This document shows, in pieces, positions 25,584 through 40,522 of a stretch of DNA of 64,000 nucleotides (positions are counted from its first letter, which is position 1; each line of letters begins with the position of its first letter). The stretch lies in assembly GCF_025755255.1 (NCBI RefSeq), contig NZ_JALIEB010000001.1:1-64000 (forward strand), in the 5' to 3' direction. The notes beneath the pieces were generated by a model. It made no database searches. It was not told where the DNA came from and worked only from the letters and a program-made list of their open reading frames with translations. The position numbers and the translations under genes are program-made. The stretch is from Roseobacter sinensis. GTDB taxonomy: Bacteria > Pseudomonadota > Alphaproteobacteria > Rhodobacterales > Rhodobacteraceae.

Positions 25584-26183
25584 CTACAGCACCGCGACGT
25601 TGAGCAGCGCCAGCGCTCCGGCGGGCACAGCGACCATGCCGATGTAGCCCGCAATCACGAAGTAGCCGTCGCGGGCGAACAATCCGAAGGCAAAGAGGCC
25701 CACGGTCGCCGCGGCGAGCGAGGTCACGCCGGGCAGAAGCTCTAGCGCGGGCCAGCCCAGCGGGATCACCGCGCACTGCGCGAGGATCAGCAGACGCATG
25801 GGACCGCGCGTCAAGGCTTGCAGACGCGGGTGAGAGTTCCGATCGATCCAGTCCGCGGGCCTGCGCAACCAGCCCACGGCCTGTTGCAGCCGCGCGCCCT
25901 TCACTTCGGCGCGCATCATCCAGCGCGGCAGCCACAGCCTGCTCCCGGTCAACCCTTGCAGCGACAGCATGATGATGATCGCCGCGCAGATCGTCGGCAT
26001 GCCCGGCACGCCCGACAGCGGCGAGACGAGCAATAGGGCGACCACGAGGATCACCGGCGTGATCGTCCGGTCGCCGATTTCCGAGAGAACGTCGCGCAGC
26101 TCGACCGTGTCGTCCTCGGCAGCCCGGTCGACGGCGTCCAGCAGGCGTGTCAAGGGCCAGTCCTCATACGTCTGGCGCGTCAT
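25584..26183 (-). CDS. ExoD family membrane protein
   Basis: A membrane protein of 199 aa resembling ExoD, which is linked to exopolysaccharide production in Rhizobium. Visible are TPVILVVALLLVSPLSGVPG, a characteristic ExoD segment, then LPRWMMRAEV and about four hydrophobic spans. The biochemical role is not established. GAGGACC precedes ATG 26183, which overlaps the 3' end of the SDR gene by 20 bases, so the two are coupled. It is convergent with dxs. Confidence 0.85.
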   Translation of the reverse strand: MTRQTYEDWPLTRLLDAVDRAAEDDTVELRDVLSEIGDRTITPVILVVALLLVSPLSGVPGMPTICAAIIIMLSLQGLTGSRLWLPRWMMRAEVKGARLQQAVGWLRRPADWIDRNSHPRLQALTRGPMRLLILAQCAVIPLGWPALELLPGVTSLAAATVGLFAFGLFARDGYFVIAGYIGMVAVPAGALALLNVAVL

Positions 26184-27042
26184 GGTCCTCGCGTTCGTCA
26201 CGCAGCAAAGCCTCCAGTCCGGTCCGATAGTCGGGGTACAATAGCTGCACTCCCAACTCCTGCTTGATGCGATCGTTCCGAACTTTCTTGCTCTCAGCGT
26301 AGAAACTGCGCGCCATCGGTGTCATCTCGGCGGTGTCGAAATCGACGGCGGGCGGCAGCGGCAGGCCCAGCAGCTCTGCAGCATAAGCGATAACATCCTG
26401 GGGCGGGGCCGGATCGTCATCGCAGAGGTTGTAGACAGCACCCGGATTGGGCTGCGCCAGCGAGGCCTCCAGGACTTGCGCGATGTCTTCCACATGGATC
26501 CGCGAGAAGACCTGCCCCCTCTTGATGATCCGCCGCGCGGTGCCGTTCCGCACCTTGGCGAAAGGGCCACGCCCTGGCCCGTAGATACCCGCAAGCCGGA
26601 AGATATGCAGCTTCAGATCCGGGATCGCCTGCCATGCAGCCTCGGCGTCCACCCGCGCCTGGCCCCGCCTTGTTGAGGGTGCCAGAGCCGTGCTCTCATC
26701 TACCCAATCCCCGCCGTGATCACCGTACACGCCCGTGGTGGAGAGATACCCAACCCATGCGAACCGCGGGGCCGCAGCCGCGATGTCCGCGCGCAGCTCG
26801 GCCAGCACCGGGTCACCGTCCGGGCCCGGCCCCGCCGAGATCAAAAGCGCATCCGCTTCCGAAAGGGTTGCCGAGATATCCGTGCCAGGCCAGACCATCG
26901 GCTCTGCGCCGCTCGCCGTGATGGCCTGGGCTTTCTCGGCGCTGCGGGTGGTGCCAATCACGCGCCACCCTTTGGCCGTCAGCCGCGGCGTCAGGGCCCT
27001 GGCGCTGAACCCGTGGCCGAAGGACAGAAGTGTCTTGCTCAT
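26164..27042 (-). CDS. NAD(P)-dependent SDR/epimerase-like protein
   Basis: An atypical short-chain dehydrogenase (292 aa) with a Rossmann fold. The nucleotide loop is FGHGFSARALTPRL near the N terminus. YLSTTGVYGDHGGDWVDE resembles the catalytic Thr/Tyr area of extended SDRs, and FRLAGIYGPGRGPF is a further family mark. Related to the YeeZ/NAD-dependent epimerase branch; substrate unknown. Followed by the ExoD-like gene with overlapping ends. Confidence 0.85.
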   Translation of the reverse strand: MSKTLLSFGHGFSARALTPRLTAKGWRVIGTTRSAEKAQAITASGAEPMVWPGTDISATLSEADALLISAGPGPDGDPVLAELRADIAAAAPRFAWVGYLSTTGVYGDHGGDWVDESTALAPSTRRGQARVDAEAAWQAIPDLKLHIFRLAGIYGPGRGPFAKVRNGTARRIIKRGQVFSRIHVEDIAQVLEASLAQPNPGAVYNLCDDDPAPPQDVIAYAAELLGLPLPPAVDFDTAEMTPMARSFYAESKKVRNDRIKQELGVQLLYPDYRTGLEALLRDEREDHDAPDV

Positions 27043-27082
27043 CGCCGCAGAGTGGACCGCGACGGACCCGGGTGCAAGACGC

Positions 27083-28336
27083 TCAACGCGGGATCTCGAT
27101 CTGCCGAGAGGCCGGGACCAATGCGTTGATCCGGCGCAGATGCTCGGGCAGACAGCACGTCAGGAAATCGTGGTGCGCGACGATATGGGCCCGCGCCGCC
27201 GGACCCAGATGCGCAAAGGCACCCGGGCCAGTGACCACCTCGATGACCTGTCGTGCCAGCGCGTCGGAGTCGTGAAAATCGACCAGCAGCCCGGTCTCAC
27301 CATGGGTGATCACCTCGCGCACCGGCGCCACATCGGAAGCCACGACAGTCGCCTGCATCGCCATCGCCTCCATCAGCGACCAGGAGAGCACGAAGGGCAT
27401 CGTCAGATAGATGTGACAGCGGCTGATCTGCACCAGCGTCTGGAAATCCGGATAGGGTATCCGGCCAAGGACATGCACGCGGCTCCAGTCGATGTCCTGG
27501 CCGACCTCCTTCTCCATCTCCGCGCGCAGCCCGCCGGGAGCCTGCGATCGCCCGCCGTAGGAGACCTCGTTGCCGCCGATGATCAACACACGCGCCTGCG
27601 GACGCTCCCGCAGGATGCGCGGCAGTGCACGCATCAAGACGTGGAAGCCGCGGGCCCGTTCGAGGTTGCGCGCGACATAGGTGATCACCTCATCGTCCCG
27701 CGTGAGCGGTCGGTCCAGACGCCCCAGAGACAGCGAGGCCGCCGCATCGGGTCGCAGACTGTCTGTCCGAATGCCGTCGTGGCACACATACATGCGGTCA
27801 TGAAAACTCTGTGGAAAGCGGTCGCGCTGCCAGAGCGTCGGGCATTGGCCCAGATCGACCGTCTCGATGTTCGCCAGCGGTACCGCGTTGCGCGCCTGTA
27901 TCAGGAACGGCGCGTGCTCCGAGACGGGCTCTTCCGGATCGAACCCGACAAGCCCGCCGTGCAGATTGTAGTAGTATTCGAAATACCCGATGATCGGCAC
28001 ATCGGGCCAGATCTGCTTGAAGAAGGTCAGCTCGCCCCACCCGACGTGGCCGACAACGATATCGGGCTTGAACCCTTCCTCCTGTTCCAGCCGGCGCGCC
28101 GCCATGGCTGCGCCGAAGCCTGCGCCGACCGCTTCTTCCCAGACCTTAGACAGCCCGTAGGCATCCTTGCCCGGCGCATGGTGCGGTTTGTAGATCACCG
28201 TGCGCAGCCGGTCGAACTGGAGCGGTGTGCGCCGCTGGGTCAGAAAGGCGATCTCGTGCTCACCGGCGGCCAAGAGCCACCGCACGATCTCGCGGTACTG
28301 GCCGGGCATGTTCTGATGCACAAAGAGCAGTTTCAT
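27083..28336 (-). CDS. glycosyltransferase, GT4 family
   Basis: A GT-B fold glycosyltransferase (417 aa). The C-terminal nucleotide-sugar domain has VTYVARNLERARGFHVLMRALP-like sequence, VLIIGGNEVSYGG, and LVQISRCHIYLTMPFVLSWS followed by EAMAMQATVVASDVAPVRE with the usual E-x7-E region. The N-terminal half begins MKLLFVHQNMPGQYREI. The acceptor is unknown, possibly an exopolysaccharide given the nearby ExoD-like gene. The ATG at 28336 is preferred to GTG 28342. It is 40 bases from the SDR gene. Confidence 0.87.
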   Translation of the reverse strand: MKLLFVHQNMPGQYREIVRWLLAAGEHEIAFLTQRRTPLQFDRLRTVIYKPHHAPGKDAYGLSKVWEEAVGAGFGAAMAARRLEQEEGFKPDIVVGHVGWGELTFFKQIWPDVPIIGYFEYYYNLHGGLVGFDPEEPVSEHAPFLIQARNAVPLANIETVDLGQCPTLWQRDRFPQSFHDRMYVCHDGIRTDSLRPDAAASLSLGRLDRPLTRDDEVITYVARNLERARGFHVLMRALPRILRERPQARVLIIGGNEVSYGGRSQAPGGLRAEMEKEVGQDIDWSRVHVLGRIPYPDFQTLVQISRCHIYLTMPFVLSWSLMEAMAMQATVVASDVAPVREVITHGETGLLVDFHDSDALARQVIEVVTGPGAFAHLGPAARAHIVAHHDFLTCCLPEHLRRINALVPASRQIEIPR

Positions 28337-28387
28337 CGACACTCACACATGATCTTCATCCGCAGCTTCGGGCAGCGGCACCTGACG

Positions 28388-29167
28388 TCAGCGGCCCTTC
28401 CACACGGGATCGCGCTTTTCCGCAAACGCCCGCGCCCCCTCCAGCTGGTCCTCCGAGGAATAGAGCCGGTCCACGGTCTCGAGCTGGCGTTGGGTGATCC
28501 GATTCATCGCGTCCTGAAATTTCGCATCCTCCGCATCCCGCACGATCTCCTTGATCGCCGCATAGACCAGCGGCGGCCCCGAGGCCAGCAGCTCGGCCAG
28601 AGCCCAGGCCCGCGGCATCAGCGCCTCGGCCGGCAGCACCTCGTTGACCAGCCCCCAGCGGTGCGCCTCTTCGGCATCGAACCAGCGCCCGGTGAGCAGA
28701 AGCTCCATCGCGATGTGGTAGGGGATGCGCTTGGGCAGCTTGACCGAAGCCGCATCCGCCACGGTGCCCGAACGGATCTCAGGCAGCGCGAAGGTGGCGT
28801 GATTGGCGGCAAGGATCAGATCTGCGCTCAGGGCAAGCTCCAGCCCGCCGCCGCAGGCGATACCGTTGACCGCTGCAATCACCGGCTTGTTCAGCCCGCG
28901 CAACTCCTGCAACCCGCCGAAACCGCCCACACCATAGTCACCATCGACGGCATCGCCGTCTGCCGCCGCCTTGAGGTCCCAGCCCAGGCAAAAGAACTTC
29001 TCGCCTGCCCCGGTCAGGATCGCCACGCGCAGCGCTGGATCGTCGCGAAAGCCGGCGAAGACCTCGCCCATCGCGCGCGAGGTCACAAGATCGATCGCAT
29101 TGGCCTTGGGCCGGTCCAGCGTAACCTGCAGGATCGGGCCCTTGCGGGTGGTCTTGATCGGCTCCAT
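28388..29167 (-). CDS. caiD: carnitinyl/crotonobetainyl-CoA hydratase-type enzyme
   Basis: An enoyl-CoA hydratase family protein (259 aa) strikingly like E. coli CaiD: TLDRPKANAIDLVTSRAMGE, LRVAILTGAGEKFFCLGWDL, and the ending AFAEKRDPVWKGR. The two catalytic glutamates are at 110 (GGGLELALSAD) and 130 (FALPEIRSG), the places used in CaiD. It would interconvert crotonobetainyl-CoA and carnitinyl-CoA. The start ATG directly abuts the ligase stop codon (TGAATG), with AGGAGACC upstream, so it is coupled to the CoA ligase. Substrate is inferred from similarity, not proven. Confidence 0.85.
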   Translation of the reverse strand: MEPIKTTRKGPILQVTLDRPKANAIDLVTSRAMGEVFAGFRDDPALRVAILTGAGEKFFCLGWDLKAAADGDAVDGDYGVGGFGGLQELRGLNKPVIAAVNGIACGGGLELALSADLILAANHATFALPEIRSGTVADAASVKLPKRIPYHIAMELLLTGRWFDAEEAHRWGLVNEVLPAEALMPRAWALAELLASGPPLVYAAIKEIVRDAEDAKFQDAMNRITQRQLETVDRLYSSEDQLEGARAFAEKRDPVWKGR

Positions 29168-31201
29168 TCAGGTCTCCTCCGGCTTGCTTGCGCATGACAT
29201 CGATATCAGCGCGTCCACCGCGATCGCCGTGTCGGTGGTACAGATCAGCGGGTTGATCTCAACCTCGCTGATCGCGTCGCCCTGCGCAATCACGCAGTCC
29301 TGCAGCGCCATGACCGCGGCGACAATAGCCGACAGGTTCGCCGCGGGCCGCCCTCGATAGCCGCCCAAAACCGGAAAGAGCCGCAGCTGCCCCAGCGCAT
29401 CCGTGACATCGTCCTCGGTCACCGGCAGCAGCCGCGAGACGCTGTCCTGCCAGATCTCGGTCAGAACCCCACCCGCGCCCAGCGTCAGCACCGCGCCATG
29501 CGCCGGATCGCGCGCCATACCCACCAGAAGCTCCACCACGGCGCCCTGCACCATCTCCTCGACCAGGTAGCGGCTCGCCTCGATCTGCTCAGCCGCAGCC
29601 GCAAGGTCGGCATGGCTGAGGCCCAGACGAACGGCCCCGGCATCTGACTTGTGCGCCAGACCCAGAGCCTTGAGCGCAAGTGGCGCCTCGAGATCAGAAG
29701 CAGCGGCGAGACCGATCCGCTCCAGAACCACGTGCCTCGGCGTGCGCAGGCCGTGGCTGCTTAACAGCACCTTCGCCGCCGCCTCATCCATCACCCAAGC
29801 AGGGGCCTCAGGGATCGGCAGGATCGGGGGCAGCGGATGCGGAGCGCCGCTGTGCGACGCCGCCTCCGCCGCGACCAGCGCCTCGCGTAACCCGCAAAGC
29901 GGCGTCACACCTGCGGCCATGAGTGCAGTGGCCGCGGCTTCTGGCATGAGCTCCGGCAGGGTCGCGGCCACTGCAACGGGCCGTCCGGTTTCGCGGCGCA
30001 CCGAGATCGCCGCCTCGGTCGCGCTCACCCAGTCGCCGGCATCGGTGTGCGGATAGTCGACCACCAGCAACAACAGCCCGATATGTGCCGCCGCCATCGG
30101 TCGCCAGGCCGCCGCCATCTTCGACGCGTCTCCCCAGACATAGGTGTGATAATCCAGCGGGTTGGAGAGCGCGACCATCGGCCCCAACACCTGCCCCAGC
30201 GCGGTTTTCTGATCCGCCGTCAACTCCGGAAAGGACAGATCGAACGGTTTGGCCATATCCGCTGCCAGACTGGCCTCGCCGCCGGAACAGCTCACGCAGG
30301 AGAGCGCATTGCTCTCCAGGCGCCCGTTGCAATGCAAAAGCTTCAGCGTCTCCAGAAAGCCGGGCAAGTCGTGCACCCGGGCCAGCCCCAGTCGGCTCAG
30401 CAAAGCCTCCGCCCCGGCGTCGCTGCCGGCCAGCGAGGCGGTGTGCGAGATCGTCGCCCGCTGCGCCTGATCCGACGCCCCGACTTTGAGCACCACCAGC
30501 GGCACATCCTTCGCATAGGCCTTGCGTGCCAAGGCGACCCACTCTGCCACATCCGCGAAGCCTTCCACGTGCAGCCCAATGGCCGTCACCCGCGGATCGT
30601 CCAGCAGCGCATCAGCGATTTGCGCCTGCCGGATCTGCGCCATGTTTCCGCACGTCACCATGTACGCGATCGGAAGCGCGCGCCGCTGCATGGTGAGGTT
30701 GATCGCGATGTTCGAGCTCTGCGTCAGGATCGCAACGCCTCTCTCCAGAGGCACACAGCCATGTTGATCCGGCCACAGCAGCGCCCCATCCAACGCATTG
30801 ATGAATCCATAGCAATTGGGCCCAAGGATCGGCATGTCGTCAGCCGCCGCCGCCAAGGCGCGTTGCAGATCGGCGGCCCCTGCGTCTTCGCCGCTCGCCT
30901 CCGAGAAGCCCGAGGCGAAGCAGACGGCACCGCCAGCGCCCATGCGCGAGAGCGCCGCAACGCTCTCCACCGTGCGATGCCGATTAACCCCAAGGAATGT
31001 CGCATCCGGCACACCAGGCAGGTCAGCGAGAGTGGGCACAGCGGCCACGGTTTCGACAGGCGCCGGATCCGGATGCACCCGCCAGATCGGACCCGAAAAT
31101 CCCATGCGCTGCACCTGCCGCACCACCTGCCGGCACCACGCACCACCCCCCACCACCGCGACCGACCGGGGCCGCAACAGCCGCGACAGATTCGGGCTCA
31201 A
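29168..31201 (-). CDS. ADP-forming acyl-CoA synthetase (acetate-CoA ligase family)
   Basis: A large CoA ligase (677 aa) of the ADP-forming type: an N-terminal CoA-binding Rossmann domain (LRPRSVAVVGGGAWC), a succinyl-CoA ligase-like middle (DMPILGPNCYGFINALDGA, then VAILTQSSNIAINL), and a C-terminal ATP-grasp domain ending EVEINPLICTTD. It would activate a carboxylic acid to its CoA thioester. The start looks like TTG at 31201, since the next residues match the family N terminus, but no good ribosome binding site is present. The frame is open back to the acyl-CoA dehydrogenase stop (19 codons), in the same frame. Confidence 0.85.
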   Translation of the reverse strand: MSPNLSRLLRPRSVAVVGGGAWCRQVVRQVQRMGFSGPIWRVHPDPAPVETVAAVPTLADLPGVPDATFLGVNRHRTVESVAALSRMGAGGAVCFASGFSEASGEDAGAADLQRALAAAADDMPILGPNCYGFINALDGALLWPDQHGCVPLERGVAILTQSSNIAINLTMQRRALPIAYMVTCGNMAQIRQAQIADALLDDPRVTAIGLHVEGFADVAEWVALARKAYAKDVPLVVLKVGASDQAQRATISHTASLAGSDAGAEALLSRLGLARVHDLPGFLETLKLLHCNGRLESNALSCVSCSGGEASLAADMAKPFDLSFPELTADQKTALGQVLGPMVALSNPLDYHTYVWGDASKMAAAWRPMAAAHIGLLLLVVDYPHTDAGDWVSATEAAISVRRETGRPVAVAATLPELMPEAAATALMAAGVTPLCGLREALVAAEAASHSGAPHPLPPILPIPEAPAWVMDEAAAKVLLSSHGLRTPRHVVLERIGLAAASDLEAPLALKALGLAHKSDAGAVRLGLSHADLAAAAEQIEASRYLVEEMVQGAVVELLVGMARDPAHGAVLTLGAGGVLTEIWQDSVSRLLPVTEDDVTDALGQLRLFPVLGGYRGRPAANLSAIVAAVMALQDCVIAQGDAISEVEINPLICTTDTAIAVDALISMSCASKPEET

Positions 31202-31217
31202 GCGCGCACCGCCCGGC

Positions 31218-31244
31218 TTCTTCTGGCCAAAAATATCCTCGCCG
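31218..31244 (-). repeat. pre-start motif, copy 1 (GAGGATATTTTTGG...)
   Basis: Read on the minus strand the sequence GGCGAGGATATTTTTGGCC is followed by AGAAGAAG. A similar motif (TGAGTATTTCTGGACGG, then GTGAAG) lies just upstream of queG at 55513-55535. The shared pattern is GAG-(2-3 bases)-ATTT-N-TGG, ending AAG shortly before a start codon. Confidence 0.5.
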
Positions 31245-31258
31245 AAGGCATGAAACCC

Positions 31259-32422
31259 TCAGGCTCCCAACGCGCGCAGAAGATCGCGGCTGATGATGTG
31301 GCGCTGGATCTCGGAGGTTCCATCCCAGATCCGCTCCACCCGCGCATCGCGCCAGAAGCGCTCGAGCGGGTAATCCGCCATGAGCCCCATGCCACCATGC
31401 ACCTGGATCGCGGCATCCGTGACCCGCGCCAGCATCTCCGAGGCGTAGAGCTTCGCACTGGCGATCTCACGGTTGGCGGGCAGGGCCCGGTCCAGGCGGT
31501 CGGCACTCGCCAGCGTCAGCAGATCGGCGGCATCGATCTCGGTGATCATATCCGCCAGCTGGAAGCTTACCCCCTGAAACTTCCCGATCTTCTGGCCGAA
31601 TTGCTCCCGCTCAGCGGCGTAACGCACTGCATAGTCGAACACGCGCCGCGCACGGCCCACAGACATCGCGGCAACCGTGATCCGCGTGGCGTAGAGCCAG
31701 GTGTTCATCACCTCGAACCCACCATCGACCGCGCCCAACACCTGCGCATCCGGCAACCGGCAATCATCGAACTCGAGGATCATGTTCTTGTAGCCGCGAT
31801 GGCTGACGGACCGATACCCGTCCCGAACGGTGAACCCCGGCGTGCCGCGATCCACCAGAAACGCGGTGATCCGCTTCTTCGGTCCCTTGTCGGTCTGATC
31901 CTCCCCCGTCGCCACAAAGACAATCACGAAGTCGGCGTGCTCCGCGCCAGAGATGAAATGCTTTGTTCCGTTCACGACCCAATCGCCACCATCGCGGACC
32001 GCCGCACAGGTCATACTGCGCACGTCCGAGCCCGCGCCTGGTTCGGTCATCGCCAGCGCATCCATCTTCTCGCCGCGCACCGCGGGCATCAGATAGCGCT
32101 GCACCTGCTCCCCCTCGCAGGCCATCAGGATGTTCTGCGGCCGCCCGAAGAAATGCGTCAGCGCCATGGCGCCGCGGCCCAGCTCGCGCTCGACCAGCGC
32201 GAATTCGAGGTGGGTCAGCCCTGCACAGCCGACGCTTTCAGGAAAGTTGCAGGCGTAAAACCCGAGTTCCAGCGCCTTGCGCTTGATCTCCAGCGCAATC
32301 TCGACGGGCACCTCGCCGCTGCGCTCGACCAGCTCTTCATGCGGATAGATCTCGTTTTCGACAAAGCTGCGGACGGTCTCCGCAATCATCCGGTGTTCGT
32401 CGGTCAGGCCATAGGTCGTCAT
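31259..32422 (-). CDS. acyl-CoA dehydrogenase
   Basis: An FAD flavoprotein (387 aa) of the acyl-CoA dehydrogenase family that introduces an alpha-beta double bond into a CoA ester. Visible are AMTEPGAGSDVRSM (FAD/substrate loop), NGTKHFISGAEHADFVIV, YAAEREQFGQKIGKFQG and MGLMADYPLERFWRDARVERI. The position usually held by the catalytic Glu (YEGTS in MCAD) reads WDGTSEIQ, so an Asp may act as base or the base lies elsewhere. It would supply the enoyl-CoA for CaiD. It is upstream of the ADP-forming ligase by 57 bases. Confidence 0.9.
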   Translation of the reverse strand: MTTYGLTDEHRMIAETVRSFVENEIYPHEELVERSGEVPVEIALEIKRKALELGFYACNFPESVGCAGLTHLEFALVERELGRGAMALTHFFGRPQNILMACEGEQVQRYLMPAVRGEKMDALAMTEPGAGSDVRSMTCAAVRDGGDWVVNGTKHFISGAEHADFVIVFVATGEDQTDKGPKKRITAFLVDRGTPGFTVRDGYRSVSHRGYKNMILEFDDCRLPDAQVLGAVDGGFEVMNTWLYATRITVAAMSVGRARRVFDYAVRYAAEREQFGQKIGKFQGVSFQLADMITEIDAADLLTLASADRLDRALPANREIASAKLYASEMLARVTDAAIQVHGGMGLMADYPLERFWRDARVERIWDGTSEIQRHIISRDLLRALGA

Positions 32423-32543
32423 CGGGCGGGCTCTTTTGGGAATGCAGAACGGGCAGGATCGGGCGCGGCCAGATCAGGCCCGCGCAGCCAGGCGCCGTGT
32501 ACTTGTCCACCGCTTTGCATCGTCCACCGGGCTGACCCAACCA

Positions 32544-33299
32544 TCAGCTCGCATAGCTGCTGCCGTCCTCATCGAGGATCGCCTTCAACTCCGCCAGATG
32601 CCGCGCATCCTGCTCGGGGTAGCTCTCGATCTCTTGCGCCGTCTTCTCAGCCACCTCGTGCGACAGCACGCGCAGCGGCTTCCCGGTCTGCAGGGCGAGG
32701 ATATAGGTCATGCAGGCCCGTTCGAAGTAGTAGAGCCGGTTGAACGTGTCGGCGACCGTGTCACCGATGACCATGACCCCGTGGTTGCCCATGACCATGA
32801 CCTTCTTCTTCGGATCGTCGAAAAGCTGCGCGCAGCGCTCGCCTTCGTCCTCGAAAGCCAGCCCGCCATAGTCCTCGTCAATCACGATCCGGTTGAAAAA
32901 CATACAGGCGTTCTGATCCACCGGCGGCAGACGGCTGTCGGCCAAGGCGGCCAGCGCCGTGGCATAGGGCGAATGCACATGCATCGCACACCGCGCGTGC
33001 GGGCAGTGCCGATGCAGCCCGCCATGCAGCCCCCAGGCCGTGGGGTCCGGCGCGTCCGGACCTTCCATGCTTGCCGGGTCATTCGCATCCACGACGATCA
33101 GGTCCGACGCCCGGATGCGCGCAAAGTGCATCTGGTTCGGGTTCATCAGAAACCGCGTGCCATCGTCGTTGATCGCCAGGCTGAAGTGGTTGGCCACCGC
33201 CTCGTGCATGTTCAGCCGCACCGTCCAGCGGAAGGCCGCAGCGAGATCCACACGCTCCTGCCAGTGGTCCATATTGGGGCGAACATGTGAAACGGACAT
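32544..33299 (-). CDS. class II aldolase/adducin family protein
   Basis: A zinc-dependent aldolase-fold protein (251 aa). The metal site is in MHVHSPYATALAA and GNHGVMVIGDTV, and the family start NHFSLAINDDGTRFLMNP is present. Members are sugar-phosphate aldolases or decarboxylases, and many roseobacter members are uncharacterised. The catalytic Glu usual in fuculose aldolase is not obvious. It lies 121 bases upstream of the acyl-CoA dehydrogenase on the same strand; the role in the CoA pathway is unclear. Confidence 0.88.
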   Translation of the reverse strand: MSVSHVRPNMDHWQERVDLAAAFRWTVRLNMHEAVANHFSLAINDDGTRFLMNPNQMHFARIRASDLIVVDANDPASMEGPDAPDPTAWGLHGGLHRHCPHARCAMHVHSPYATALAALADSRLPPVDQNACMFFNRIVIDEDYGGLAFEDEGERCAQLFDDPKKKVMVMGNHGVMVIGDTVADTFNRLYYFERACMTYILALQTGKPLRVLSHEVAEKTAQEIESYPEQDARHLAELKAILDEDGSSYAS

Positions 33300-33375
33300 C
33301 GGGCACCTCCTCGCATTTGTCCAAGTTGAACCATGCCGGAACGCGACTGGCTAGCCGAAATGCGACAGACGCGGG

Positions 33376-33798
33376 CTAGTCCAGCGGACGACTTGGCACC
33401 CAGGCATAGCCGTCACCGCAAAGGATATAGGCCTCGCGCAGCCCATGCGGCTTGTCGGTTGGCGCCTGAAGGATGACAGCACCTGCCGCTTCGGCCCGCG
33501 CCACGGCCGCCTCCGGGTCCGTATCGTAGAGCCGGATTTCGATCCCCGCCCCGCGCGGCGGGTTTTCCGGCAGCAGGCCCAGCAGAGGGTTCGACCCATA
33601 GGTCCCATCGCTGTGCAGCTGAAACAGCTGCACCCCGTAGGTGAGGATGGCGAAATCTTCGCTCAGCCGATGCACCCCCATCCCGAACACGTGCTCCAGA
33701 AATGTCGCGGTCTCGCGCACGTCACGCACCAGCAGGTTCAGCCCGATCCCGCGCAGGCTCTTGCCGAAATCCTCCGCCGACACGGTTTCATAGTCCAT
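33376..33798 (-). CDS. VOC family (glyoxalase/dioxygenase fold) protein
   Basis: A small protein of 140 aa with the VOC beta-alpha-beta-beta-beta fold: LRGIGLNLLVRDVRETATFLEHVFGM, then IEIRLYDTDPEAAVARAEAAGA. Metal-binding His/Glu residues are possible but not sure (for example the His after VFGMGVHR). GGAGGCGCGCTG decides the start at 33798; the ATG at 33840 lies too close to the ade promoter. It is the first gene of the minus-strand cluster and is divergent from ade. Confidence 0.83.
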   Translation of the reverse strand: MDYETVSAEDFGKSLRGIGLNLLVRDVRETATFLEHVFGMGVHRLSEDFAILTYGVQLFQLHSDGTYGSNPLLGLLPENPPRGAGIEIRLYDTDPEAAVARAEAAGAVILQAPTDKPHGLREAYILCGDGYAWVPSRPLD

Positions 33799-33848
33799 CA
33801 GCGCGCCTCCCCGCTTGAACATCCCCAAAACCCGTGGCACCTAGGGAC

Positions 33849-35651
33849 ATGACGCACGCAGCTTTCCCCTCATGGCCAGACACCGCTCCGCAGCTCATTG
33901 CCGTGGCAACCGGCCGCAGCCCTGCGGATACGGTCATTCGCGCAGGCAAATGGGTCAATGTCCATACGCGCGAAGTGCTCGATGGCCATGACATCGCCAT
34001 TGCGCGTGGCCGCATCGCCTGCGTGGTGCCGGACGCCTCCCACTGTATCGGGCATGAGACGCAGGTCATCGAAGCGGACGGCCGCTACATGATCCCCGGG
34101 CTCTGTGACGGGCATATGCATATCGAAAGCGGGATGCTGACGCCCGCAGAGTTCGCCCGCGCCGTGATTCCCCATGGCACCACCTCGATGTTCACCGACC
34201 CGCATGAGATCGCGAATGTGCTGGGCCTCGAAGGCGTGCGCATGATGCACGACGAGGCGCTCATGCAGCCCGTCAACATCTTCACTCAGATGCCCTCCTG
34301 CGCACCCTCCGCGCCGGGGATGGAGACGACGGGCTACGAGATCACCCCCGAAGACGTGGCCGAAGCGATGACCTGGCCTGGCATCATCGGTCTGGGCGAG
34401 ATGATGAACTTCCCCGGCGTGTCGAACGCCGACCCGAAGATGCTGGCCGAGATCGCCGCGACGCAAATGGCGGGCAAGACAGTGGGCGGCCATTACGCCT
34501 CGCCCGACCTGGGCCCCGCCTTCGCGGGCTATGTCGCGGGCGGCCCGGCGGACGATCACGAGGGCACCTGTGAAGCCGACGCCATCGCCCGGATGCGGCA
34601 GGGCATGCGGTCGATGATCCGGCTGGGCTCCGCCTGGTATGACGTGGAAAACCAGATCACCGCGGTGACCGAAAAGGGCCTCGATCCGCGCAACATGATC
34701 CTCTGTACCGACGATTGCCATTCCGGCACGCTGGTGAATGACGGGCATATGAACCGCGTGGTGCGCCACGCCATCGACTGCGGCTGCGACCCGCTCATCG
34801 CACTGCAAATGGCGACGGTCAACACCGCCACGCACTTCGGGCTGGAGCGCGAGATCGGGTCACTCACCCCCGGCAGGCGCGCCGATGTGATCCTGACCTC
34901 TGACCTCATCACCCTGCCCAGCGAGACCGTGATCGCGCGTGGCCAGATCGTCGCCGAGAACGGGCAATGCCTCGTCGACTGCCCGCATTACGACTGGCCC
35001 GCCAAGGCCCGGCAGACCGTGCATCTGGGCAAGACGCTGACCGCGGAGGATTTCACGATCCCCGCCCCCAAAGGTGCCAATGCCGTGCGCGCCAATGTGA
35101 TCGGCGTCGTCGAGAACCAAGCGCCCACCAAGGCGCTGCAATTCGAACTGCCCGTCACCGAAGGCCGCGTGCAGGCCACCGGAGACGTCGCGCAAATCGC
35201 ACTGGTCGAACGGCATCGCGGCACCGGGCAGGTCACCAACGCCTTTGTTTCGGGCTTTGGCTACGAGGGGCCCATGGCGATGGCCTCCACCGTCGCCCAT
35301 GACAGTCACCACATGATCGTCGTCGGCACCGATGCCGACCACATGGCCATGGCCGCGAACCGTCTGGGCGAGATCGGCGGCGGTATCGTCATCTTCAAAG
35401 ACGGTGCCGAGCTGGCGCTGGTCGAACTGCCGATCGCCGGGCTGATGTCCGACCGCCCCGCGGCAGAGGTCGCGGCAAAAGCGGACGCGATGATGGCCGC
35501 CATGTGCGCCTGCGGCTGTACGCTGAACAACGCCTACATGCAGCATTCGCTGCTGGCCCTCGTCGTCATCCCCGAGCTGCGCATCTCCGATCTCGGCCTG
35601 GTCGACGTGCGCAGATTTGATTTCATTCCCGTTGTAGAACCCCTCTCATGA
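33849..35651 (+). CDS. ade: adenine deaminase
   Basis: Ade (600 aa) hydrolyses adenine to hypoxanthine and ammonia. It is a metal-dependent amidohydrolase: PGLCDGHMHIESGMLTP supplies metal His residues, followed by HGTTSMFTDPHEIANVLG, TDDCHSGTL and the C-terminal FVSGFGYEGPMAMASTVAHD of the Ade family. The ATG at 33849 lies in GGACATGAC with a weak upstream site. Its stop overlaps the amn start by 4 bases (ATGA). Together the two turn AMP into hypoxanthine. Confidence 0.95.
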   Translation: MTHAAFPSWPDTAPQLIAVATGRSPADTVIRAGKWVNVHTREVLDGHDIAIARGRIACVVPDASHCIGHETQVIEADGRYMIPGLCDGHMHIESGMLTPAEFARAVIPHGTTSMFTDPHEIANVLGLEGVRMMHDEALMQPVNIFTQMPSCAPSAPGMETTGYEITPEDVAEAMTWPGIIGLGEMMNFPGVSNADPKMLAEIAATQMAGKTVGGHYASPDLGPAFAGYVAGGPADDHEGTCEADAIARMRQGMRSMIRLGSAWYDVENQITAVTEKGLDPRNMILCTDDCHSGTLVNDGHMNRVVRHAIDCGCDPLIALQMATVNTATHFGLEREIGSLTPGRRADVILTSDLITLPSETVIARGQIVAENGQCLVDCPHYDWPAKARQTVHLGKTLTAEDFTIPAPKGANAVRANVIGVVENQAPTKALQFELPVTEGRVQATGDVAQIALVERHRGTGQVTNAFVSGFGYEGPMAMASTVAHDSHHMIVVGTDADHMAMAANRLGEIGGGIVIFKDGAELALVELPIAGLMSDRPAAEVAAKADAMMAAMCACGCTLNNAYMQHSLLALVVIPELRISDLGLVDVRRFDFIPVVEPLS

Positions 35652-37629: not shown

Positions 37630-38517
37630 TCAGGCGAGCATCCGCAGGAACCGCGCAAGCACGTCGTCCTTGTCACGGCTGGAATGCCAGAATGCGTAGA
37701 TGCTGACCGCGTCGTGATCGAAGGGAAAGGGGTGCACCCGGACCGGCCAGCGCGCTGCGATCTGACGGGCTGCGCGCGCGGGCACTGTCGCGATGAGCCC
37801 CTTGCCGCAGATCAGATCTGGAACAAGCGAATAGGACCAGACGGAAAGCTTGCGCCGTCGGCTCTGCCCCGCGCGGCGCAGGACTTCCTCGTCATCGAAC
37901 AGCGTCTGATGCCGGCTGTATCGGACAACCACATGGTCGCGCTCGAGATAGGCCGATGACGTGAGCGCACCGGCCTCGGGGCCGCACTCGGCACAGGACA
38001 GACAGACAAAGCTGTCGGTGAAGACACGCGCTTTCGGCGGCAGGCCCACATCCAGCGACTGCCCGGCCAGAAGCAGATCGACCTCGCCGGTCTGGAGCTG
38101 CCGGGCAGAGCCGCCGGACAACGGCAGAAGGTCAAAGCGCAGTCCAGGCATCTCGGTCGCAGCCCGCTCGATTGCCGGAACCACAGAGCTCCGCATCACG
38201 TAGTCCGACGCAACGACAGAGAGGTCCCGCGCGATGCCCGACACACCTGCGCCCGGTCGCAGCGCCGCGAAGGACTGCGCCTGCGACAGAAGCGCGTTCA
38301 TCGGGGCGATCAGTCCTTCCGCAAACGGGGTCCGGACCATGGTTCGGCCCGAGCGGACGAGAAGCTCATCGCGAAAGTGATCGCGCAGCTGCGCCAGAAC
38401 GGCGCTCATGGCGGATTGGCTCAGATGAACCCGCTGCGCCGCACGGGTGACGTTGCATTCAACCAGCAGCGCTTCGAGATAGGTCAGCTGATTGAGGTTG
38501 AAACCCGAGAGGCGCAT
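37630..38517 (-). CDS. LysR family transcriptional regulator
   Basis: A LysR-type regulator (295 aa). The N-terminal winged helix is NLNQLTYLEALLVECNVTRAAQRVHLSQSA and VLAQLRDHF, and the ligand domain has a NodD-like arrangement (about 90-290). It is divergent from the PhyH-family gene, and a 14-bp inverted repeat in between begins eight bases upstream of its start, so it probably controls both genes. Ligand unknown. Confidence 0.92.
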   Translation of the reverse strand: MRLSGFNLNQLTYLEALLVECNVTRAAQRVHLSQSAMSAVLAQLRDHFRDELLVRSGRTMVRTPFAEGLIAPMNALLSQAQSFAALRPGAGVSGIARDLSVVASDYVMRSSVVPAIERAATEMPGLRFDLLPLSGGSARQLQTGEVDLLLAGQSLDVGLPPKARVFTDSFVCLSCAECGPEAGALTSSAYLERDHVVVRYSRHQTLFDDEEVLRRAGQSRRRKLSVWSYSLVPDLICGKGLIATVPARAARQIAARWPVRVHPFPFDHDAVSIYAFWHSSRDKDDVLARFLRMLA

Positions 38518-38524
38518 GACATAT

Positions 38525-38567
38525 CCGAAAAATCGATTGCAAACTCATTGTTAAATCAATTTTTCGG
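38525..38567. promoter_or_regulatory. 14-bp inverted repeat in the LysR-PhyH gap
   Basis: CCGAAAAATCGATT (38525-38538) and AATCAATTTTTCGG (38554-38567) are inverted copies with one mismatch, 15 bases apart. The AT-rich arms and position next to the LysR start suit a LysR autoregulatory site. Confidence 0.6.
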
Positions 38568-38623
38568 GCGGTCAAACCCGTGCCAGACTGGTGTCGACAA
38601 GACATGTGCCGGAGACCCGAAGG

Positions 38624-39451
38624 ATGATGACCACACCCGCCCCCGCCAGAACACCGGCCAGCATCGCCGAGACCTACGAGCGCGACGGGTTCGCCCTGCC
38701 CATCGATGTGCTGACTGAAGGCGACGCCAGAGCGCTCCGCGATGACCTCGAGGCCGCCGAGGCGGAGCTGGCAGACGATGCCGAGCGTCTGGGCCTGCTG
38801 CGCACCTACCCGGATCGGCTGTTGCCAAGCTTCGATGCCCTGATCAGGCACCGGGGGATCCTCCGCGCTGTCACCTCGATCCTCGGCCCGGATCTGCTGG
38901 TCTACAGCGCCGCGCTCTTCATCAAGCCCGCCCGGTCCGACAAGATCGTCTCCTGGCACCAGGATCTCACCTACTGGGGTCTCGACGATGCCGAGGAGGT
39001 GACCTGCTGGGTCGCGCTTTCGCCGGCCACGCGTGAAAGCGGCTGCATGCGGTTTGTGCCGGGCAGTCACAAGACGCGGATCGTGCCGCATGTCGACACC
39101 TACGCCGACGACAACCTGCTGTCCCGCGGTCAGGAAATCGCCGTTGCCGTCGATGAGGCCGACGCCGTCCTGTGCGAGTTGCAGCCGGGTCAGGCGTCGC
39201 TGCACCACGGGCACCTGTTCCATGCCTCGGGGCCGAACACCACCGAGGATCGGCGCATCGGTGTGGCGATCCGCTATATCCGTCCGTCGATGAAGCAGGA
39301 CAGCGGGGACCGCCCGCTTGTGGCGCTGGCCAGCGGGGTTGACCGTTTCCGCCACTTCAGCATCGCGGCCTCTCCGCAGGGCCGCCTGCTCGAGCGTGAC
39401 ATCAAGATCTGCCGGCAGGAGGCCGCCTTGCGGCGCAAGCTCTTCCTCTGA
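38624..39451 (+). CDS. phytanoyl-CoA dioxygenase (PhyH) family protein
   Basis: An Fe(II)/2-oxoglutarate-type oxygenase (275 aa). A facial triad fits SWHQDLTYWG (His and Asp) and the distal His in HHGHLFHAS; the 2-oxoglutarate-contacting Arg is probably in DRRIGVAIRYI. The family hydroxylates very varied small molecules, so no substrate is claimed. It starts at ATG 38624 (or 38627) after CGGAGACCCGAAGG. It is divergent from a LysR gene and convergent with the sugar operon at 39467, 15 bases apart. Confidence 0.87.
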   Translation: MMTTPAPARTPASIAETYERDGFALPIDVLTEGDARALRDDLEAAEAELADDAERLGLLRTYPDRLLPSFDALIRHRGILRAVTSILGPDLLVYSAALFIKPARSDKIVSWHQDLTYWGLDDAEEVTCWVALSPATRESGCMRFVPGSHKTRIVPHVDTYADDNLLSRGQEIAVAVDEADAVLCELQPGQASLHHGHLFHASGPNTTEDRRIGVAIRYIRPSMKQDSGDRPLVALASGVDRFRHFSIAASPQGRLLERDIKICRQEAALRRKLFL

Positions 39452-39466
39452 GCGGCGACCGCGCTG

Positions 39467-40522
39467 TCACCGGGGTTTCATGGCCAGCGGCGTTGCGGGC
39501 CGCGCGCTGCTCTCATAGGCCGCTTCGACCAGCGCCATCGTGGTCCAGGCATCTTCGACACCGCCCAACAGGGTGGTTTCCTCGCCCGTCGCAAAGCGCT
39601 GAAGCTGGCTCATCCGGCTGGCGAAGGCATCGGGAAACCATGCCCCCTTCAGGTCGACAGCGCGCCAGCCGTCCCCGGTGTTGAGCTCGAGGATATCGGG
39701 CTCGCCCCGCGGATAGTCGAGGTTGACGCCCAATTGCAGATAGGCGGCCCCTTTCGTCCCACAGATGCGGAATTCGCAGGCCTGATGCCGACGTCCGAAC
39801 CCGTGATTGTGATTGATCGACAGCGCGCAACGGACTTCCTCGCCATAGTCGAGAATGGCTGCGGTACGGGTCTGCGCGATCTTTGATGATGGATGCCCCA
39901 GCGTTTTGGCGTGAACCCCCAGCGGATCGCCCAGCAGCCCGCGGATCATGTCGAGGTAGTGGATCGAGTGCAGGCTGATCTCGACGCGGGGCAGCGGCTC
40001 GAGAAACTTCCACAGACCCCAGGGCGTGTCCAGCGCCAGCCAGGCATCGACATCCACGATACGGCCGAGCAGCCCCCGGTCGACCGCATCGTAGAGGGCA
40101 AGGATCAGCGGGGCAAAGCGCAGCTGGAAGTTCACGGCTGCCTTCAGGTGTCGCGCGCGGCAGATCTTCAGGATCTCGGAAGCCCCAGCCAGATCGCTGC
40201 CCATCGGTTTCTGGATCAGGACCGCCGCGCCCTCCGGAAGCCCCCGCAGGATGTCCGCATGGGCATCCGGCGGCGTGGCAAGATCGAAAACCACGTCTCC
40301 GACGTTCGCCGCCTCCGCGGGCGTGGTGAAGGCCTCGAAACCCTGCGCCTGCGCGAGCGCGTGTGCCTTAGCGAGGTCGGGATCAAAGACGCCGAGCACC
40401 TCGTAGCCAGCCTTTTTGTAGGCGGGCAGATGTGCGTCCGTCACGATGGACCCGGCCCCAAAGAGCACAATCGGTTTGGGACGGGTGGCGCGGGGCCAGG
40501 CCTGCTTCAGTTCGTCATACAT
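39467..40522 (-). CDS. Gfo/Idh/MocA family oxidoreductase
   Basis: An NAD(P)-dependent dehydrogenase (351 aa). The Rossmann start is KPIVLFGAGSIVTDAHLPAY, the usual EKP motif is QKP (IQKPMGSDLAGA), and the C-terminal domain has VEISLHSIHYLDMIRG with a His-type active site. It likely oxidises a sugar or sugar derivative. It is the last gene of the importer operon, three bases after the mutarotase-like gene. The Q in place of E in the QKP motif is seen in many family members. Confidence 0.88.
   Translation of the reverse strand: MYDELKQAWPRATRPKPIVLFGAGSIVTDAHLPAYKKAGYEVLGVFDPDLAKAHALAQAQGFEAFTTPAEAANVGDVVFDLATPPDAHADILRGLPEGAAVLIQKPMGSDLAGASEILKICRARHLKAAVNFQLRFAPLILALYDAVDRGLLGRIVDVDAWLALDTPWGLWKFLEPLPRVEISLHSIHYLDMIRGLLGDPLGVHAKTLGHPSSKIAQTRTAAILDYGEEVRCALSINHNHGFGRRHQACEFRICGTKGAAYLQLGVNLDYPRGEPDILELNTGDGWRAVDLKGAWFPDAFASRMSQLQRFATGEETTLLGGVEDAWTTMALVEAAYESSARPATPLAMKPR

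Follow-up and report, generated by a model that had tools for sequence, protein, structure and literature searches.

Introduction

The first 64,000 nt of contig NZ_JALIEB010000001.1 of Roseobacter sinensis (assembly GCF_025755255.1; positions 1-64,000, numbered on the forward strand and referred to below as the window) contain genes for an acyl-CoA dehydrogenase (ACAD), an ADP-forming acyl-CoA ligase and a hydratase resembling CaiD of Escherichia coli, preceded by genes for a class II aldolase and a VOC protein. This cluster raises the question of which acid is activated and in which direction the enzymes operate. According to a first-pass annotation, the ligase, ACAD and hydratase would together convert gamma-butyrobetaine (GBB) to carnitinyl-CoA. 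The present analysis supports this reading because orthologous loci, four in number, also hold the genes for carnitine 3-dehydrogenase (CDH) and for the ‘3-keto-5-aminohexanoate cleavage protein’ (BKACE), and because CDH is present in nearly all ligase-bearing genomes of the family. It is highly probable that the operon represents the upper half of an aerobic GBB pathway and that CDH and BKACE, encoded elsewhere in the genome, provide the lower half. The assignment draws on gene content, alignments of catalytic residues, homology, gene order and co-occurrence, from which we infer every substrate and reaction.

In the proposed route, the ligase would convert GBB, ATP and CoA to GBB-CoA, the ACAD would transform GBB-CoA into crotonobetainyl-CoA, and the hydratase would add water to yield L-carnitinyl-CoA. 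A thioesterase domain fused to CDH would presumably release carnitine, which CDH would oxidise to 3-dehydrocarnitine. BKACE would then cleave 3-dehydrocarnitine with acetyl-CoA to betainyl-CoA, from which glycine betaine would be obtained.

Gene company and co-occurrence of the two proposed pathway halves

The ACAD-ligase-hydratase set recurs in related genomes and is therefore more than a chance arrangement. In Rhizobium ruizarguesonis, Sulfitobacter W027, Sinorhizobium B11 and Paracoccus methylovorus, a single locus holds the trio as well as CDH and BKACE. The loci referred to here as related are the best 80 of 567 from a genome scan; they include the hydratase in 79 cases, ACAD in 76, the aldolase in 42, VOC in 18, CDH in 9 and BKACE in 10. 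For the 57 loci longer than 20 kb, the corresponding counts are 57, 56, 33, 16, 8 and 9. In a separate set of CDH loci (20 fetched of 30 returned; a CDH match in 68 of 385 genomes), 5 of the 20 carry the whole trio, and 3 others carry a TauD-family gene.

Co-occurrence was evaluated across the family in a sample of 198 genomes, with each genus represented once. Of these genomes, 122 carry the ligase, 145 CDH, 107 the aldolase and 106 adenine deaminase (adeC), which serves as a control. Ligase and CDH are found together in 118 genomes, the ligase only in 4, CDH only in 27 and neither in 49; CDH thus occurs in 118/122 genomes with the ligase versus 27/76 without it. The control is unlinked, with odds ratios of 0.9 with the ligase, 0.9 with CDH and 1.0 with the aldolase. 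The Fisher p-values for co-occurrence, in which kinship is ignored, are small.

In R. sinensis itself, the CDH and BKACE genes lie close together on contig C38 (G000:C38:395455-398428), and the operon lies on contig C16. The CDH reaches 782.8 bits against NF005716 (cut-off 592), is 51% identical to the Rhizobium CDH and ends in a C-terminal 4HBT_2 thioesterase domain, while BKACE matches PF05853 with 335.8 bits and its Rhizobium counterpart with 74% identity. Ligase and CDH are also found on different contigs in two other genomes (G022 and G252) and more than 800 kb apart in a third (G154). The lack of linkage between upper and lower halves is treated here as a difference of layout and not as a defining feature.

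If the assignment is correct, the conversion of GBB via carnitine to glycine betaine, known from a soil rhizobium, would be common in the Roseobacter family, as judged from the distribution of the ligase (122/198 genomes), and GBB could be expected as a substrate of these mostly marine bacteria. In addition, the genes annotated as ‘acetate--CoA ligase family protein’ in Ruegeria pomeroyi and its relatives would gain a testable function.

Two further observations concern the CDH neighborhood. An MTTB-family methyltransferase gene (L119:1882-3513) is located about 6 kb from the CDH gene of R. sinensis. At another locus, a short open reading frame beside the CDH and BKACE genes (L154:10245-10643) seems, by eye, to join an ACAD-like start to a C-terminal ligase remnant, and is apparently a deletion remnant of the upper pathway.

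The hydratase

When E. coli CaiD (strain MG1655) is used as a query against the R. sinensis genome, the hydratase is recovered with 291 bits and 57% identity, while the next-best of the 13 matches reaches 142 bits and 36%. The protein contains the ECH_1 domain (212.5 bits), and among 73 NCBIfam families its best model is CaiD (NF002936, 327.9 bits; runner-up 232.4). Its residues Glu110 and Glu130 correspond in the alignment to CaiD Glu111 and Glu131, so both catalytic glutamates are kept, and the earlier description of a hydratase very like CaiD with these two residues is borne out. Because its score misses the NF002936 equivalog cut-off of 500, the hydratase is, judged by these comparisons, CaiD-like and not classed as a CaiD equivalog. 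The Rhizobium hydratase from the CDH locus is likewise under this cut-off, with 308.5 bits.

The missed cut-off would suit a different explanation, in which the CaiD likeness is a family resemblance and the cluster serves the CoA-dependent beta-oxidation of another short acid, such as hydroxycinnamates, as in the FerA/FerB pathway for these compounds, or crotonate or butyrate. It would also suit this explanation that ADP-forming ligases serve several acids, with 3-hydroxypropionate and 4-hydroxybutyrate ligases among the matches. However, the hydratase is much closer to CaiD than any other crotonase found in its own genome, the trio shares loci with CDH and BKACE, and CDH accompanies the ligase in the proportion given above, which makes degradation of another acid improbable. 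The gene company in the opened records argues specifically against a FerA/FerB-type system.

The ligase and the acyl-CoA dehydrogenase

The ligase combines CoA_binding_2, Succ_CoA_lig and ATP-grasp_5 domains in a single chain, which is the ADP-forming type, and with these three domains and both conserved histidines it belongs to the ADP-forming acyl-CoA synthetase superfamily. The histidine of the SHTASLAG motif is invariant in 6 aligned ligase sequences and aligns with histidines of DddX and of the 3-hydroxypropionate and 4-hydroxybutyrate ADP ligases. Together with the histidine of the AHKSDAG motif, we take it to be catalytic in ADP-forming ligases. The protein is 51-63% identical to the ligases of Ruegeria, Sulfitobacter and Rhizobium loci, and matches occur in 159 plasmid records, the 40 matches listed falling within the same range. 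CaiC, by comparison, is AMP-forming, and E. coli CaiC and the window ligase do not match in BLASTP at 1e-5. The ACAD has the Acyl-CoA_dh N, M and C domains and is 73-85% identical to the ACADs of R. pomeroyi, Sulfitobacter and Rhizobium loci.

The nearest solved structure to the ligase is DddX (7cm9; 190 bits over residues 7-669), other structure matches including the 3-hydroxypropionate and 4-hydroxybutyrate ligases, and the best NCBIfam match of the ACAD is the acryloyl-CoA reductase AcrC. These matches would be expected if the cluster served dimethylsulfoniopropionate (DMSP) and acrylate metabolism, with the ligase acting as a DddX-like DMSP lyase/ligase and the ACAD as an acryloyl-CoA reductase, and DMSP is a common marine substrate. 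Such a function is nevertheless extremely improbable. The likeness to DddX is modest when compared with the 847.6 bits obtained against the best other genome of the family, the Rhizobium orthologues are located in carnitine loci, and a CaiD-like hydratase would be needless for a DddX-type lyase.

The direction of the pathway also has to be considered. The chemistry is reversible in principle and the hydratase is CaiD-like, and the enzymes could accordingly be imagined to run in the reductive direction, from carnitine to GBB, like the cai enzymes of E. coli. This is very improbable, considering that the ACAD is only 28% identical to CaiA, that CaiB-like and CaiC-like genes occur (at 1e-12) in only 1/80 and 7/80 related loci, the latter at 24-30% identity, and that the lineage is aerobic.

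Several observations weigh against the assignment to GBB catabolism. At the level of single proteins, these include the shortfall of the hydratase from the equivalog cut-off, DddX as the best named match of the ligase, and the ACAD score against AcrC, which at 289.6 bits is the best available while lying under that model's cut-off of 640. At the level of gene company, CDH and BKACE are outside the operon in this genome, three Ruegeria records were opened in which neither lies within 8-12 kb of the trio, and 4/122 ligase genomes are without a CDH match. Moreover, the Fisher tests carry no correction for relatedness, and genome fragmentation leads to missed genes and obscures linkage.

Comparison with known systems

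The L-carnitine metabolism of Sinorhizobium meliloti reportedly comprises five enzymes that catalyse seven steps from GBB to glycine betaine (Bazire 2019, J Bacteriol). The proposed route matches this pathway and is thus not new; R. sinensis would be a Roseobacter-family member with a scattered layout. BKACE, CDH-thioesterase, ACAD, a fused ADP-forming ligase and a CaiD-like hydratase are common to the Sinorhizobium B11 and Rhizobium loci. R. sinensis similarly encodes ACAD, acyl-CoA ligase and CaiD-like hydratase together and has CDH-thioesterase and BKACE in its genome. Unlike in that arrangement, its CDH and BKACE genes are on a separate contig from the trio, the hydratase gene is followed by a glycosyltransferase gene and not by an ABC transporter, and class II aldolase and VOC genes precede the ACAD.

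Locus numbers permit a closer comparison. PMC12482172 attributes to SM2011_c01638 both the conversion of carnitine to 3-dehydrocarnitine and that of betainyl-CoA to glycine betaine. SMc01639 is listed as a putative acyl-CoA dehydrogenase in PMC12542648, and PMC3596328 and PMC4941405 assign SMc01642 to a proline-betaine transporter and name it PrbA, a periplasmic binding protein. In Sinorhizobium B11, the gene order is BKACE, CDH, ACAD, ligase, hydratase and ABC binding protein. Because the SMc locus numbers match this order, SMc01640 and SMc01641 should be the ligase and the hydratase. A GBB:CoA ligase named ‘S. meliloti BcoAB’ was used with ATP and CoA to make GBB-CoA (PMC8364193). Considering the locus numbers together with the gene order in Sinorhizobium sp. 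B11 and M103, BcoAB is probably the orthologue of the window ligase. An ADP-forming GBB ligase has thus very probably already been characterised. The earlier suggestion that a butyrobetaine route with an ADP-forming ligase would differ from the CaiC type consequently stands as far as the difference from CaiC is concerned, while its novelty is weakened by BcoAB being already in use. The existence of separate BcoA and BcoB genes beside CDH was considered and rejected: in the 5/20 CDH loci with the whole trio, the ligase halves adjoin on one strand. In four of these five genomes the ligase reads as a single open frame uninterrupted by stops, and the three plasmid records checked likewise show one open frame.

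With the E. coli cai operon (CaiA, CaiB, CaiC, CaiD and CaiT), the cluster shares the hydratase with both catalytic glutamates. It differs in having a fused ADP-forming ligase in place of CaiC and an ACAD distant from CaiA, and no CaiB, CaiT or Fix protein is encoded among the five window genes. DddX aligns with the ligase in one stretch, including both conserved histidines, but the score is only 190 bits and its gene company is different. The GBB dioxygenase route achieves the same net conversion of GBB to carnitine, but it employs an oxygenase and is not CoA-dependent. No GBB-dioxygenase-like match was found in this genome at E 1e-10, an empty answer that constitutes weak evidence.

For Roseobacters, PMC10130141 reports a carnitine transporter, cntTUVW, in R. 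pomeroyi. PMC12478193 mentions anaerobic GBB demethylases and includes CdhABC among the proteins that R. pomeroyi increases under N-osmolyte conditions, one of which is carnitine. GBB dioxygenase is mentioned in Thalassobius in the butyrobetaine/Roseobacter literature, and a search of this literature, with most subscription journals outside it, returned no report of the cluster in Roseobacters.

Organization of the cluster

The five genes named in the first-pass annotation lie in the interval it described or just upstream, the aldolase and VOC genes being upstream of the ACAD as stated, and all are on the minus strand in the list of open reading frames (Table 1).

Table 1. Genes and conserved residues of the cluster, in window coordinates.
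Feature	Position	Strand	Basis or remark
CaiD-like crotonobetainyl-CoA hydratase (predicted)	28388..29167	-	259 aa; alignment with E. coli CaiD spans 259 aa at 57% identity
Fused alpha-beta ADP-forming acyl-CoA ligase, probable GBB-CoA ligase	29168..31201	-	Pfam domains; DddX 7cm9 alignment; homologues
ACAD, probable GBB-CoA dehydrogenase	31259..32422	-	Pfam; identity to ACADs of related loci
Class II aldolase/adducin family protein (NF005689/PRK07490)	32544..33299	-	421 bits, cut-off 260; genome-wide co-occurrence with ligase
VOC (glyoxalase-fold) protein	33376..33798	-	Glyoxalase 27.1 bits; found in 18/80 related loci
Codon of hydratase Glu110 (= CaiD Glu111)	28838..28840	-	Alignment
Codon of hydratase Glu130 (= CaiD Glu131)	28778..28780	-	Alignment
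Ligase SHTASLAG-motif conserved His codon (His250 counted from codon 31192)	30443..30445	-	Invariant in 6 aligned sequences; aligned with DddX
Ligase AHKSDAG-motif conserved His codon (His514 counted from codon 31192)	29651..29653	-	Sequence alignments including DddX

The ligase starts with TTG at 31201, and the queries were started at codon 4 (31192). The hydratase ATG immediately follows the ligase stop codon, the gap between aldolase and ACAD is only 121 bases, and an alternative GTG start at 33840 is possible for the VOC gene. In agreement with the earlier remark that no transporter is adjacent, a scan of 10 window proteins, encoded in 26164-28342, 28388-33798 and 37630-40522, revealed none. 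A sigma-70 consensus scan of 28200-34000 yielded no promoter-like site, a result that is weakly informative here. The orthologues of the trio in R. pomeroyi DSS-3 are SPO_RS21280, SPO_RS21275 and SPO_RS21265. In R. pomeroyi, a DJ-1/PfpI gene lies between ligase and hydratase (L028:14008-14613; L044:12007-12615), and DJ-1 genes occur in 3/80 related loci.

The class II aldolase

The aldolase contains the Pfam Aldolase_II domain. Its best matches among solved structures comprise the decarboxylase NovR (84 bits) as well as class II aldolases, adducins and TqaM, a range that fixes no single reaction. Adjacency was rejected as evidence for the aldolase as an operon partner because it follows chromosome position: the aldolase is present in 42/46 related loci with adeC, amn or dxs and in 0/34 others. 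In addition, amn or adeC still neighbors the aldolase in 15/20 chosen unlinked aldolase loci.

Genome-wide co-occurrence is better evidence than adjacency. Ligase and aldolase are found together in 93 of the 198 genomes, the ligase only in 29, the aldolase only in 14 and neither in 62, which corresponds to the ligase in 93/107 genomes with the aldolase versus 29/91 without it. Of the 93 genomes with both, 26 have the two genes no more than 10 kb apart and 30 no more than 20 kb apart, contig breaks being among the rest. The link persists in the 145 CDH-positive genomes (both 89, ligase only 29, aldolase only 10, neither 17). No related locus carries aldolase and CDH together (0/80; 0/57 among loci above 20 kb). 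The notion that the two replace each other was discarded, as 99/107 aldolase genomes also have CDH somewhere.

Aldolase relatives were found in 31 plasmid records, of which 10 were opened, with Sulfitobacter W027 as an additional one. In 7/10, the relative lies beside genes of quaternary-amine type: a TauD-family gene in five (L173, L175, L178, L179 and L180), choline genes in L174, and CDH-like and BKACE genes together with an acetate--CoA ligase family gene in L176. L177, L181 and L182 are without such neighbors. Because of this gene company, the aldolase is a candidate pathway enzyme and no more. That this PRK07490-group protein has a so far unrecognised part in the GBB/carnitine metabolism of Roseobacters is a tentative and rather unlikely idea. 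Such an enzyme may release an aldehyde, either betaine aldehyde or, on a path leading to GBB, 4-trimethylaminobutyraldehyde; alternatively, it may act as a 3-dehydrocarnitine decarboxylase. If so, the known route would gain a side branch for entry or exit. The co-occurrence points to one uncharacterised enzyme family that tracks the GBB pathway.

The TauD genes of L173, L178, L179 and L180 are 48-71% identical to the L175 gene, which is annotated as GBB dioxygenase. For the TauD proteins of L031 and L175, the TmpA and GBB-dioxygenase models give nearly equal scores, which lie under both cut-offs. Pairs of a TauD oxygenase and an aldolase relative recur (L173:6013-7928, L175:6001-7933, L178:4811-6702, L179:4817-6684, L180:4823-6708 and L031:15882-17737), with an additional HIBADH-like dehydrogenase and aldehyde dehydrogenase in L173 and L175, and may represent an undescribed quaternary-amine catabolic module. 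Finally, a gene of the PF04116 fatty-acid-hydroxylase family is located between aldolase and ACAD in one related locus (L033:7623-8660); genes of this family occur in 18/80 related loci, all 18 of which also have the aldolase.

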